From the IMG/VR virus record IMGVR_UViG_3300035670_001160, positions 1 through 25,354 of that record: a stretch of DNA of 25,354 nucleotides; one strand, written 5' to 3'. Shown here one piece after another: positions 17,383 through 21,498 of this stretch (within the stretch, counting starts at the first letter, position 1; every line of letters begins with the position of its first letter). The notes under the pieces were generated by a model, which made no database searches, was not told the origin of the DNA, and saw only the letters and a list, made by a program, of their open reading frames with translations. The stretch is from a virus. A program made the translations under genes and the position numbers.

Positions 17383-17723
17383 CTGTCGACGAACTACTCG
17401 AACAGTTGAACAGCGCCGAGCTGCGTCACCTCACCGAGCGGCAGAACATGCGACGTGCCATCGTGCAGCTGCATGACGCTTTGCAGGAATCGATGTCGAC
17501 ACATGGTCGACCGGCGTGGTTCGACAAGCAGGTCGAAGCAGCATTGACGGCAGCACGGCCGTACATCGACGACACAGCCAGCAAAGTCCGCAAAGGCTGT
17601 ATCGACAACTGGAACGGCAACCAACTCCTCATCGAAGTGTTCCGTGACGGCACATTCCACATCGCTGAACGCGAAAACAGTTGGGATACGTGGAATGTCG
17701 GCCAGTGGGGGTGGCTGTCATGA
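17379..17723 (+). CDS. Hypothetical protein, helical N-terminal half
   Basis: 114 residues, GTG start overlapping the previous stop (GTGA). The first ~60 residues are charged helices (VDELLEQLNSAELRHLTERQ, MRRAIVQLHDALQESMSTHG). The rest is mixed with aromatic strands (NWNGNQLLIEVFRDGTFHIA, then DTWNVGQWGWLS). I do not recognise a family. It leads the block of small accessory genes and overlaps the next gene by 4 bases. Confidence 0.65.
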   Translation: MTVDELLEQLNSAELRHLTERQNMRRAIVQLHDALQESMSTHGRPAWFDKQVEAALTAARPYIDDTASKVRKGCIDNWNGNQLLIEVFRDGTFHIAERENSWDTWNVGQWGWLS

Positions 17724-17923
17724 CCGGCCCCGCTATCGCCCACTGGCATCTGTTGGGCCGTGACGACTCCGGTCGACTCGGTATCGAACTCGAAGCATCT
17801 GACGGCACCTGCAACCACTGGTGGTTTCGTGACGACGACCAGATGCGCCGCTTCATCATCCACCTCATCTCCGTCTATTTGAACGGCAAGATGCCCGATC
17901 CGCAGGAGCGCAACCGTGGCTGA
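17720..17923 (+). CDS. Hypothetical small protein, aromatic-rich
   Basis: 67 residues from ATG 17720, overlapping the previous stop (ATGA). Sequence MTGPAIAHWHLLGRDDSGRL then DGTCNHWWFRDDDQMRRFII, rich in Trp, His and Asp. It looks like a small alpha/beta domain ending in an amphipathic helix and QERNRG. Its last bases carry GGAG and the first GTGGCTGA junction of the array, so its C-terminal RG is fixed by the start of the next gene. No function recognised. Confidence 0.6.
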   Translation: MTGPAIAHWHLLGRDDSGRLGIELEASDGTCNHWWFRDDDQMRRFIIHLISVYLNGKMPDPQERNRG

Positions 17924-18173
17924 CGTGCATCACATGATCGACGTGACTAGCCCTGGCGATCATCGCCGCTACTTCTGTCGCGGCGCAAAGATCGTCAACC
18001 CGACAAAGATTGATCGCATTGTGTTCGAGTTGCGCGAACTGGGCGACGACCTCGACACATACAACAATCTGCGAGGCGGCGAGATCGTGCACGAAGCCGC
18101 AGATCATCTGCTGTTTCTTCAGCGTGCGATCGCTGCGGCGATCGGCCGCCTGGAGGACGCCGGCCGTGGCTGA
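17916..18173 (+). CDS. Small array protein 1 (MAD...RG, helical)
   Basis: 85 residues, GTG start overlapping the previous stop by 8 bases (GTGGCTGA); GGAG at 17905-17908. N-terminal half VHHMIDVTSPGDHRRYFCRG is beta-like. The second half (VNPTKIDRIVFELRELGDDL, then IVHEAADHLLFLQRAIAAAI) is helical and has an EAADxLxxLQ core close to that in two later array members. It ends ...DAGRG with the next junction. No catalytic motif. It may interact with other array proteins through the helix; that is inference. Confidence 0.6.
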   Translation: MADVHHMIDVTSPGDHRRYFCRGAKIVNPTKIDRIVFELRELGDDLDTYNNLRGGEIVHEAADHLLFLQRAIAAAIGRLEDAGRG

Positions 18174-18399
18174 GAACAACGTGATTTTGCAACACAACTA
18201 CTACGAGGAGCGCCGCAGCTTCGGTCGTATCCGTCGGGTTGCCGACGGCACCGGCTTTCTTCATGTCGAGTTGGACGGCATCTTCCGTTCCGCTGTGATC
18301 CCTGGCGAAATCTTCCCGGCTGTATCGAACGCTGTGATCGCCTTGCAGCGGCAGATCGCTGAGCTGCAGGCCGAACTCGAGGAGGCTCGCCGTGGCTGA
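18166..18399 (+). CDS. Small array protein 2
   Basis: 77 residues, GTG start in a GTGGCTGA overlap, GGAGG at 18152-18156. The first 50 residues (NVILQHNYYEERRSFGRIRR, DGTGFLHVELDGIFRSAVIP) appear beta-rich. The end (IALQRQIAELQAELEEARRG) is a coiled-coil helix whose final EARRG is identical to the ends of array members 3 and 5. The stop lies in the first of three near-identical 38-base repeats. Unknown function. Confidence 0.58.
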   Translation: MAENNVILQHNYYEERRSFGRIRRVADGTGFLHVELDGIFRSAVIPGEIFPAVSNAVIALQRQIAELQAELEEARRG

Positions 18400-18416
18400 C
18401 GACATCGTGACCCGAC
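18379..18416 (+). repeat. 38-base gene-boundary repeat, copy A
   Basis: Spans the end of array gene 2 and the start of array gene 3, with GAGGAGGCTCGC then CGTGGCTGACGACATCGTG. Identical over 38 bases to copy B at 18563-18600 and one base different from copy C at 19037-19074 when offset by one. It holds the ribosome site, stop, start and the MADDIVTR codons. Confidence 0.9.
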
Positions 18417-18583
18417 TGCAAGACACCGCATACGAAACCGATCTGTGTTGGGAAGCAGCCGACGAGATCGAAGTGCTACAGACTGCTTTAGCGCTGGCAT
18501 GCGGACTGTTGAGCACCTACTACGGCATGTCTCAACCTGCCCAGTTGATGCAGCAGTTCATGGAGGAGGCTCGCCGTGGCTGA
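18392..18583 (+). CDS. Small array protein 3 (MADDIVTRL / EAADEIE type)
   Basis: 63 residues, GTG start in a GTGGCTGA overlap with GGAGG six bases away. MADDIVTRL at the start and WEAADEIEVLQTALALACGL in the middle form a pattern seen in many small phage proteins, whose function is not established to my knowledge. It shares its N-terminus and EAADEIExLQ with array protein 6 and its C-terminal half (ALxxAxGxLST ... EARRG) with array protein 5, as if assembled from exchangeable halves. The body is helical, probably an oligomerising coiled coil. Confidence 0.62.
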   Translation: MADDIVTRLQDTAYETDLCWEAADEIEVLQTALALACGLLSTYYGMSQPAQLMQQFMEEARRG

Positions 18584-18600
18584 CGACATCGTGACCCGAC
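18563..18600 (+). repeat. 38-base gene-boundary repeat, copy B
   Basis: Perfect copy of 18379-18416, 184 bases downstream, at the junction of array genes 3 and 4. Direct repeats of this length flanking one whole gene could recombine to delete or duplicate gene 3. Seen directly. Confidence 0.9.
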
Positions 18601-18809
18601 CCTGCTGCGTCATCCGGCCATGCGGATGCGCTGATGCACGCACGGTCATCGACCACCTACACCGTGAGATCGAACGGCTACGTGCTGGACTACAAGATGC
18701 TTGGTCTGCTGCCGACATGCTCGCAACCCAACTCGAAAGAATCTCGTCAGGAAACACGGAGGTGCTGCGTGAATACGACCAGCGGCGAGAGGAGGCCGAC
18801 CGTGGCTGA
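18576..18809 (+). CDS. Small array protein 4, Cys-rich N-terminus
   Basis: 77 residues, GTG start in a GTGGCTGA overlap. It begins with the same eight residues as array proteins 3 and 6 (MADDIVTR) and then departs to PCCVIRPCGCADARTV, four Cys within nine residues, a possible metal site. A helical coiled-coil segment follows (VIDHLHREIERLRAGLQDAW). It ends EEADRG. The shared start is encoded by repeat copy B, so it may have been acquired by recombination while the rest is unrelated. No function recognised. Confidence 0.58.
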   Translation: MADDIVTRPCCVIRPCGCADARTVIDHLHREIERLRAGLQDAWSAADMLATQLERISSGNTEVLREYDQRREEADRG

Positions 18810-19056
18810 CATCAAACGCAAAGACGTTCAACGCCTAAGCCACCAACTAGTTGACGCCGTTACACAACTCCGGCAAGACATGGCAAGGCAAGACGCAACC
18901 ATCCAACGACAAACAGCCGAAATCCACCAACTACGCGCAGCACTTCAGATCGCCGCAGGGAAACTGTCCACCCTGCCGCCGTACACCGACTGGCATCCCG
19001 AGGTGATCTACAAGGCGCTACTGGAGGACGGTACGCAGGAGGCCCGCCGTGGCTGA
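18802..19056 (+). CDS. Small array protein 5, coiled-coil
   Basis: 84 residues, GTG start in a GTGGCTGA overlap, GGAGG at 18791-18795. Residues 5-50 form a long heptad-like helix (VQRLSHQLVDAVTQLRQDMA, IQRQTAEIHQLRAALQIAAG). The end, LSTLPPYTDWHPEVIYKALL and ...EARRG, parallels the C-terminal half of array protein 3. From this gene rightward the coding strand becomes clearly A/C-rich. No enzyme motif; probably oligomeric. Confidence 0.6.
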   Translation: MADIKRKDVQRLSHQLVDAVTQLRQDMARQDATIQRQTAEIHQLRAALQIAAGKLSTLPPYTDWHPEVIYKALLEDGTQEARRG

Positions 19057-19074
19057 CGACATCGTGACCCGACT
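19037..19074 (+). repeat. 38-base gene-boundary repeat, copy C
   Basis: Matches 18380-18417 with one difference (C at 19044 for T at 18387). Joins array genes 5 and 6. Together with copies A and B it gives three recombination-prone junctions within 700 bases. Confidence 0.88.
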
Positions 19075-19216
19075 ACGCCAAATCCTTGACCCCGAGATGT
19101 CACCCACCGAACAAGCAGTCGTCGTTGAAGCCGCCGACGAGATTGAAAGGTTGCAGGCCCTAACCGTTGCATTGCGCGCCGAGATTCAACGCCTCGAGCA
19201 GGTGAACCGTGGCTGA
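19049..19216 (+). CDS. Small array protein 6 (MADDIVTRL / EAADEIERLQ type)
   Basis: 55 residues, GTG start in a GTGGCTGA overlap, GGAGG at 19038-19042; short enough to be missed by length cut-offs. Sequence MADDIVTRLRQILDPEMSPT, then VVVEAADEIERLQALTVALR and a charged helical end. This is the cleanest copy of the MADDIVTRL ... EAADEIERLQ pattern found in small proteins of many phages. It is paralogous to array protein 3 in the first 30 or so aligned residues. Function unknown. Confidence 0.62.
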   Translation: MADDIVTRLRQILDPEMSPTEQAVVVEAADEIERLQALTVALRAEIQRLEQVNRG

Positions 19217-19457
19217 CTATCTCGACGACAAGTGCCGTCTCCTGGAGCAGTACGCAAGTGATCTGCGTAAGCGTTTCGAGGCGCAGAAGGAATGGGACGC
19301 CCGTCACCCTGATTTCCGCACATGGGACGAAGCCAAATGGGATTTTGTTAACGAAGTTGATCCTCGCCCGTCGACAGCCGATGTGATCAGCGTCGAACGA
19401 TGGCTGATGGTGATCGAGGTTGCCACTGCTGCATACAAAGAGACACACAATGGCTGA
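19209..19457 (+). CDS. Small array protein 7, helical
   Basis: 82 residues, GTG start in a GTGGCTGA overlap; the ribosome site is AGGTGA at 19200-19205. Charged helices (YLDDKCRLLEQYASDLRKRF, EAQKEWDARHPDFRTWDEAK) lead to a VISVERWLMVIEVATAAYKE helix and an ETHNG end. Unlike its neighbours it has no EAADEIE or EARRG blocks. It overlaps the next start in an ATGGCTGA version of the junction. Function unknown. Confidence 0.6.
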   Translation: MADYLDDKCRLLEQYASDLRKRFEAQKEWDARHPDFRTWDEAKWDFVNEVDPRPSTADVISVERWLMVIEVATAAYKETHNG

Positions 19458-20029: not shown

Positions 20030-21498
20030 ACAACGACATCATGAACACACCGTCCGAAACCCGTCGGGATCGCTGGGGCCGCTATTTGGTGGTGCCACCG
20101 GCCGGTGGCAAACCTGTCGGCTACACGCGAGCCACGACGGTGGCGAAAGCGTTGGATGACACCTCGAGCCTGATGGCGTGGGGCGAACGCATGACGGCGA
20201 TCGGCCTGTCGGATCGACCCGATCTGCTCGCCCAGGTGCATGAAGCCCGCAACGACAAAACAGCGCTGAACCGGATTTGTGAACGGGCGAAAGAGGCGGG
20301 GGGTGCCACCGTCCGCAGAGACTTGGGCACCGCACTCCACAGCATGCTCGAACAGTCGTTCAACGACGCCACATACGAGCCGCCGGCGGCACACAAGGCT
20401 GATGTGGAGGCGGTTCACGCGCAGCTGCGTCACGCCGGCCTCGAGGTCGTCGCAGGGATGACCGAACGGGTCGTTGTATTGGACGAACATACTATTGCCG
20501 GCACATTCGACCTGTTAGTGCGCGATTTATCGACCGGTGAACTACTCATCGCCGACATCAAAACCGGCAGCAGCGTCGAGTACGGAGCCCTCGGATTCTG
20601 CGTCCAACTAAGCCTGTACGCGCACGCCGACTCGTTGTACGTACAAGGCGAAGCCGGCGACGGCTCACAAGATCAACGCAACCCGATGCCCCAAGTGTCA
20701 CAACAACGGGCCGTCATCATTCACGTCGAACCCGGCTCCGGCCTATGCACCATCCACCAACTTCAACTGCACTGGGAGTTGGCTGAGATGGCGATCGACG
20801 TCCGCTCCTCCAGGTCGATGCGAAACCTGCTGCAACCATGGCAGTCACCGCTGGAAGCGCTCCTCGAGGCCCGCAACACGTGGATCAGAAACAGGATCGC
20901 CGCCTGCACCGAAGCAAACAAGAAACTGCTCGCCACACACTGGCCGCCGTCAATCCTCCCACCGAAGAAAGCGAAGTTGTACACGTCTGCCGAGATTGAC
21001 GACCTGGACGTCGTGTTGGGACGTGTCGAACGTGAACTCGACATCACCTGGCCCACACCCGACCCACGCATCGCCACGATCACCGTCAACAAAGGTGCGC
21101 TACAAGCCTCCCAGGAGCCTCTAGAAGAGCCTGTAAGCCCCGCAGAAGGTGCAGAGCAACCAGACCAGCGTCAACGCCTGAAAGACGCCTACGACGCCCT
21201 GGACGACGACGGGAAATCTTGGATTGCTGCAAGAGTTTGGGAAGCGAACTCGGCGGAACTCCCTATCCGAGTCGCCGAACACCCATCACAACGACGCATC
21301 GCTATCGCTGACGTCATGTTCACCGCCTGGGCGAAACAACTCGACGACAACACCATCCGACACATGATCGCCGCAGTTCTGGGTGACGAAACCGTCACCT
21401 TGGACAGCATCAGTCTCGGGGCCGCACTCGGCTGCCTCGACAACAGGCAAGCCGCTGCGCTTGTCGAACTCACCAACATCACCCAAGGAGCGAACTGA
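20026..21498 (+). CDS. RecB-like PD-(D/E)XK exonuclease
   Basis: 490 residues, ATG overlapping the previous stop (ATGA). The nuclease core shows GTALHSMLEQ (H105), IAGTFDLLV (D162), IADIKTGSS (D177, K179) and FCVQLSLYAHAD (Q194, Y198), which are motifs I-III and the QhxxY motif of RecB/Cas4-type nucleases. The last ~100 residues (QRLKDAYDALDDDGKSWIAA onward) are an added helical domain. It probably resects DNA ends for recombination or host DNA turnover. It is followed by a putative ssDNA-binding protein, a functional pair often seen in phages. An in-frame extension to 19900 overlaps the zinc-ribbon gene and is rejected. Confidence 0.78.
   Translation: MNNDIMNTPSETRRDRWGRYLVVPPAGGKPVGYTRATTVAKALDDTSSLMAWGERMTAIGLSDRPDLLAQVHEARNDKTALNRICERAKEAGGATVRRDLGTALHSMLEQSFNDATYEPPAAHKADVEAVHAQLRHAGLEVVAGMTERVVVLDEHTIAGTFDLLVRDLSTGELLIADIKTGSSVEYGALGFCVQLSLYAHADSLYVQGEAGDGSQDQRNPMPQVSQQRAVIIHVEPGSGLCTIHQLQLHWELAEMAIDVRSSRSMRNLLQPWQSPLEALLEARNTWIRNRIAACTEANKKLLATHWPPSILPPKKAKLYTSAEIDDLDVVLGRVERELDITWPTPDPRIATITVNKGALQASQEPLEEPVSPAEGAEQPDQRQRLKDAYDALDDDGKSWIAARVWEANSAELPIRVAEHPSQRRIAIADVMFTAWAKQLDDNTIRHMIAAVLGDETVTLDSISLGAALGCLDNRQAAALVELTNITQGAN

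Follow-up and report, generated by a model that had tools for sequence, protein, structure and literature searches.

Why do seven small genes of a virus follow one another through the same eight-base overlap of stop and start codon, and is that junction a border at which genes are exchanged? The locus lies in the IMG/VR record IMGVR_UViG_3300035670_001160, a fragmentary contig whose whole analyzed stretch of 25,354 bases is referred to here as the window. Its gene content is that of a tailed phage, with head, tail, glycosyltransferase, metallophosphoesterase, WhiB-like and endonuclease genes, and the genomes compared to it were metagenome contigs throughout.

An array of small genes joined by stop/start octamers

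An earlier note on this DNA had reported seven starts within GTGGCTGA between 17916 and 19209, and all seven were recovered there as 8-nt overlaps, in which the upstream gene reads CGT GGC TGA (RG-stop) and the downstream gene reads GTG GCT GAC (Met-Ala-Asp), with GAG (Glu) at 18166. The start at 19450 uses ATGGCTGA, as had been claimed, again as an 8-nt overlap, and the last array gene ends in HNG-stop because this next start is ATG. A ribosome-site-like sequence, also anticipated by the note, precedes every array start; stop and start overlap and the ribosome site lies within the upstream gene, which is the arrangement expected of translation-coupled overlaps. Numerically, GTGGCTGA occurs nine times in the window versus 1.27 expected from dinucleotide shuffles, a count reached in 0 of 100 shuffles. 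By our own gene list, all eight boundaries from 17916 to 19450 are 8-nt overlaps (seven GTGGCTGA, one ATGGCTGA), compared with only two of ~35 boundaries outside the array, at 2205 (GTGGCTGA) and 6038 (ATGCGTGA). The octamer attributed to the sugar gene start at 2205 is indeed present; this isolated overlap precedes the glycosyltransferase gene and is kept in the close relative described below (G001).

Three junctions stretch, as first noticed in the note, into near-identical 38-base repeats, which are copies of a longer junction, J (about AGGAGGCCCGCCGTGGCTGACGACATCGTGACCCGACT). Several of the array proteins begin with MADDIVTR and carry AADEIERL further in, the latter encoded by an internal motif, E, and none of the seven could be assigned to a confident Pfam or PHROG family. 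The features of the locus are as follows (coordinates, strand, description).

17720..17923, +, gene entering the array, 67 aa, ATG start at 17720, ending ...ERNRG-stop in GTGGCTGA
17916..17923, +, GTGGCTGA octamer, the last base of which is the left homology breakpoint with G001
17916..18173, +, array gene 1, 85 aa; a diverged 85-aa allele lies at the same place in G001
18166..18173, +, GTGGCTGA octamer junction
18166..18399, +, array gene 2, 77 aa; without PHROG/Pfam family
18379..18416, +, junction J copy 1, 38 bp
18392..18583, +, array gene 3, 63 aa, MADDIVTRL...AADEIEVL...EARRG; 38-bp identical direct repeats on both sides
18455..18478, +, internal motif E (AADEIEVL)
18563..18600, +, junction J copy 2, 38/38 identical to copy 1
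18576..18809, +, array gene 4, 77 aa, MADDIVTRP...HREIERLR
18802..18809, +, GTGGCTGA octamer junction
18802..19056, +, array gene 5, 84 aa
19036..19073, +, junction J copy 3, 95% identical
19049..19216, +, array gene 6, 55 aa, MADDIVTRL...AADEIERL...EQVNRG
19130..19153, +, internal motif E (AADEIERL)
19209..19216, +, GTGGCTGA octamer junction
19209..19457, +, array gene 7, 82 aa; G001 has a 228-aa nuclease-like gene instead
19450..19457, +, ATGGCTGA octamer (GTGGCTGA in G001), right homology breakpoint
20032..21498, +, PD-(D/E)XK exonuclease 3' of the array (phrog_466, PF12705), with a possible function in recombination

Homology borders in the window and in other phages

The only close relative of the window that a flank-protein search returned, G001 (IMGVR_UViG_3300034073_003363), is ~89-90% identical to it on both array flanks, including the gene at 17720..17923, which is conserved up to base 17923. 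There, at the last base of GTGGCTGA, homology is lost, and it is regained at 19451, inside ATGGCTGA. Between the two breakpoints G001 carries four genes, all with RTGGCTGA starts, versus seven in the window, so the expectation that relatives would differ in gene content at these junctions held for this pair, with both breaks inside octamers. The right border is sharp; at the left, identity drops already in the 50 bp before the breakpoint, and the first genes are diverged alleles rather than unrelated genes, which makes this border softer. Array gene 6 is homologous to a G001 array gene (L004:4563-4736, 78% DNA identity), and array gene 3 has a homologue with junctions on both sides in G004, a phage of 42% GC, as well as a partial homologue in L337. 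The last array gene of G001 encodes the 228-aa nuclease-like protein (phrog_21138, weakly Holliday junction resolvase/endonuclease) and lies between 26-bp direct repeats that include the junction; since the second copy is out of the nuclease's reading frame, we read it as a duplication relic. Units flanked by direct repeats are also represented by window gene 3 (38 bp), G001 gene L004:4163 (37 bp) and a unit of contig G007 (135 bp).

Beyond this pair, pattern searches and a profile applied to viral contigs located J, 90-100% identical, in over 12 phage contigs of 42-70% GC that are mostly unrelated; these were chosen through the motif and are thus biased to share it. Most of them share few proteins with the window (e.g., in G004, a single ORF at 49% identity). 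In a degenerate search that did not fix third codon positions, J was recovered at 30 sites, 26 of them 8-nt overlaps, and the exact seven-codon string was present in 15 of the 30, versus 0.025 expected from each contig's own codon usage, a several hundred-fold excess among sites that are not independent within one contig. Applied to motif E, the same test gave 9 exact strings among 22 versus 0.22 expected. Conservation of both J and E extends to the DNA level in phages that are mostly unrelated. Within a contig, the upstream halves of J are more alike than between contigs (0.83 versus 0.66; 0 of 2000 shuffles), as expected from duplication or conversion inside genomes. The G007 array itself recurs as near-identical copies in G010 (IMGVR_UViG_3300025872_000063), which comes from another metagenome, and it is therefore not a one-off assembly error.

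Some neighboring sequence families were recorded separately. In contigs of the L327 type, which were set aside, MADDIVDYWDNP lies at a comparable octamer that lacks a ribosome site and in most cases has a short upstream frame. In other phages (L118, L124, L130, L135, L139, L150, L151, L154 and L156), the same octamer as in the array is followed by a different conserved cassette head, MADLSPAAQAVL (GTGGCTGACCTCTCCCC..GC.GC.CAGGCGGT), and homology edges fall there too. G010 additionally contains, at ~35.8-45.4 kb, a second, unrelated repeat family with more than 10 copies of ~45-55 bp (for example 41170-41219, 41728-41777, 43788, 44518 and 44781).

Pairwise comparisons of J-bearing contigs placed changes of gene content in the same element. 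L098 and G009 share 153 bp at 98% identity, ending at the A of GTGGCTGA and followed by different genes, while 91% identity between L188 and L192 extends to J and is followed by a different gene in each before the two become homologous again. L181 and L198, which are unrelated, share a ~240-codon gene that stands between two J copies in each; in its G007 homologue the left border is the octamer and the right border a GTGACTGA variant. G028 is a chimera of a G011-type upstream gene end and a G007/G010-type downstream gene, with the switch in J. Quantitatively, 23 of 30 HSP ends, from 15 cassette-sized matches, fall in J or E versus 13.9 +/- 2.1 for random placement (0 of 2000 reach 23). Of 55 exposed GTGGCTGA junctions, 45 are homology edges, versus 35 of 90 ATGA/GTGA overlaps lying no more than 2 kb away (p=4e-7). 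Both genomes have the junction at 55 of 73 GTGGCTGA edges versus 27 of 64 for ATGA/GTGA overlaps. Homologous pieces common to these phages thus tend to begin and end in J or E. Other 8-nt overlaps, which are few, are edges in 12 of 15 cases, as often as GTGGCTGA, and the GTGGCTGA sequence is therefore not itself shown to be special. The proposal of the earlier note that the junction acts as a module boundary is accordingly largely supported in that gene content differs at the junctions, but not in the importance that it gave to the octamer. As a separate observation, homology between G006 (27310-27431) and L121 breaks across a J, with ~120 bp extra in G006, and the L121 sequence resumes at an E motif.

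Generic and distinctive parts of the junction

Bacterial chromosomes provided a control for the junction sequence. Its upstream 20-mer (AGGAGGCYSRYCGTGGCTGA) marks 8-nt coupled overlaps in most of the 80 chromosomal sites inspected (L205-L284), in ordinary GC-rich genomes including Streptomyces, Amycolatopsis and Microbacterium, which rules it out as a phage-specific mark; common octamers alone therefore prove no exchange. It stands, for example, ahead of the VAERLSIAYSPCPNDTFV gene in several Streptomyces/Kitasatospora, as a generic coupled-overlap signal. The exact junction 22-mer was absent from the bacterial genomes searched. Among published phages, neither blastn with the 4-kb array locus nor tblastn with a cassette protein gave a match, and a 43-mer junction query returned weak matches only, carrying only the generic overlap. 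The octamer and the upstream half of the junction are hence generic in GC-rich genomes, and what is distinctive is the longer, DNA-conserved junction together with the internal motif.

These controls bear on the simplest alternative, a convergent translation signal, in which a favorable coupled overlap (Shine-Dalgarno, short spacer, GTG GCT GA) would arise repeatedly in GC-rich genomes and the edges would reflect ordinary boundary mosaicism. The chromosomal occurrences of the 20-mer fit it, as do the published phages Pam4, Mae-JY24 and Braxoaddie, in which the overlap occurs but the remainder of J does not, and the equal edge frequency of other 8-nt overlaps. However, it is already weakened by the identical synonymous codons that continue 20 bp past the overlap in phages of 42-70% GC, and it leaves these unexplained along with the conservation of the intragenic motif E as DNA, the direct repeats that flank units and the excess of edges over 4-nt overlaps of the same region, so we consider it unlikely. 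The paralogue-like family found within single arrays would also suit selection at the protein level, with MADDIVTRL and AADEIERL as functional motifs of one small protein family and the array built by tandem duplication. This we hold to be very unlikely, given that codon conservation in J and E goes far beyond what the usage of each phage would give, that array genes lacking the motifs use the same junctions (17916, 18166, 18802 and 19209), and that the 240-codon gene of L181 and L198 is unrelated to the family yet bounded by junctions.

Active cassette mobility, whether site-specific or endonuclease-driven, integron-like or through homing by the nuclease-like gene of G001, draws on the G001 unit, in which the phrog_21138 protein sits between direct repeats. 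Such a nuclease is absent from most arrays, though, and edges also fall at E, inside genes. No integrase was recognized among the window proteins scanned, which were part of the ORFs of this fragmentary contig, and a hairpin or attC-like site is ruled out, as J does not fold (z=+1.65) and the array is without inverted repeats. We regard active mobility as highly improbable.

A probable route of gene exchange and its known counterparts

We consider it likely that the locus is an array of small and probably translation-coupled genes that are swapped gene by gene between phages at J/E homologies. Each unit would consist of J, a variable part, often E, a further variable part and the next J, where J comprises the end of one gene, the ribosome site, the 8-nt GTGGCTGA overlap and the first ~9 codons of the next gene. 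From the borders and repeats seen in these contigs we infer both translational coupling and recombination at J: short homologous recombination or annealing between copies of J (or E), in a mixed infection or inside one genome, would insert, delete, duplicate or replace units, and, with the crossover lying inside the coupling overlap, an incoming gene would still be translated from the operon. Phage annealing proteins would be the likely agents. J offers 26-38 bp of exact identity, and the published minimum for pairing is 23-27 bp with Red-beta and 31-34 bp with RecA (PMC3945230). Searches for RecT, ERF and AAA_24 recognized no annealing protein in the window; over the whole recombinase search, RecT was found in 0 of 14, ERF in G011 only and AAA_24 as two sub-cut-off matches only.

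A stronger reading, which we offer tentatively and think doubtful, is that J serves unrelated uncultivated phages as a dedicated cassette border that has spread horizontally, making up an integrase-free, integron-like exchange system. If so, any gene that ends in RG-stop and starts with MAD/E in J could plug into the operon of another phage and be expressed at once. Under the main reading too, the border is visible, repeated and common to phages, and it coincides with a probable coupling overlap, so that the recombination target and the expression signal would be combined in one piece of DNA. J and E would in any case supply defined sequences with which homology-driven exchange can be tested and a marker by which small exchangeable phage genes can be recognized, and could shed light on how viruses shuffle genes while keeping them intact.

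No description of J was found in the literature searched, which consisted of open-licence papers, but several known systems resemble it in part. The SAS/ESAS of cluster K mycobacteriophages are likewise short sequences repeated at the starts of many different small genes; according to the available text of PMC3203893, SAS (GGGATAGGAGCCC) lies before the start whereas J spans the overlap, ESAS has inverted repeats whereas J has none, and neither is described there as an exchange border. Allowing for up to 2 mismatches, a search of the window gave 0 matches to the SAS motif. In T4-like phages, PeSL cassettes (Arbiol et al. 2010, cited in PMC4503421) similarly place a conserved sequence among small genes and are thought to mediate shuffling, but PeSL is a promoter and stem-loop between genes, whereas J is a coding overlap without a stem-loop, and the array is without inverted repeats of at least 10 bp within 60 bp. 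The relaxed recombination of Rad52-like phage recombinases (PMC3945230, PMC2327257) supplies an enzymology able to use 23-38 bp of identity, as a general mechanism with no dedicated junction sequence.

Closer still is Island3 gene 68 of the cluster I mycobacteriophages (PMC3029335), in which one small gene has been inserted beside another, a gene end of ~50 bp is duplicated, and recombination between the two copies was inferred; there, a duplicated gene end accompanies a small gene as it does here, but in a single event, with no tandem array and no element shared across phages. The boundary-sequence idea (Susskind & Botstein 1978 and Clark et al. 2001, both cited in PMC3029335) proposes that modules are swapped by homologous recombination at short stretches of homology lying at gene borders, and J agrees with it in being present in both genomes at most of the edges counted above, including both window/G001 edges. 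Unlike those boundary sequences, J is itself a stop/start overlap, stands in tandem within one array and is shared by mostly unrelated phages, and a second type of copy, E, lies inside genes. The boundary-sequence hypothesis and Island3 gene 68 are the closest precedents of J.
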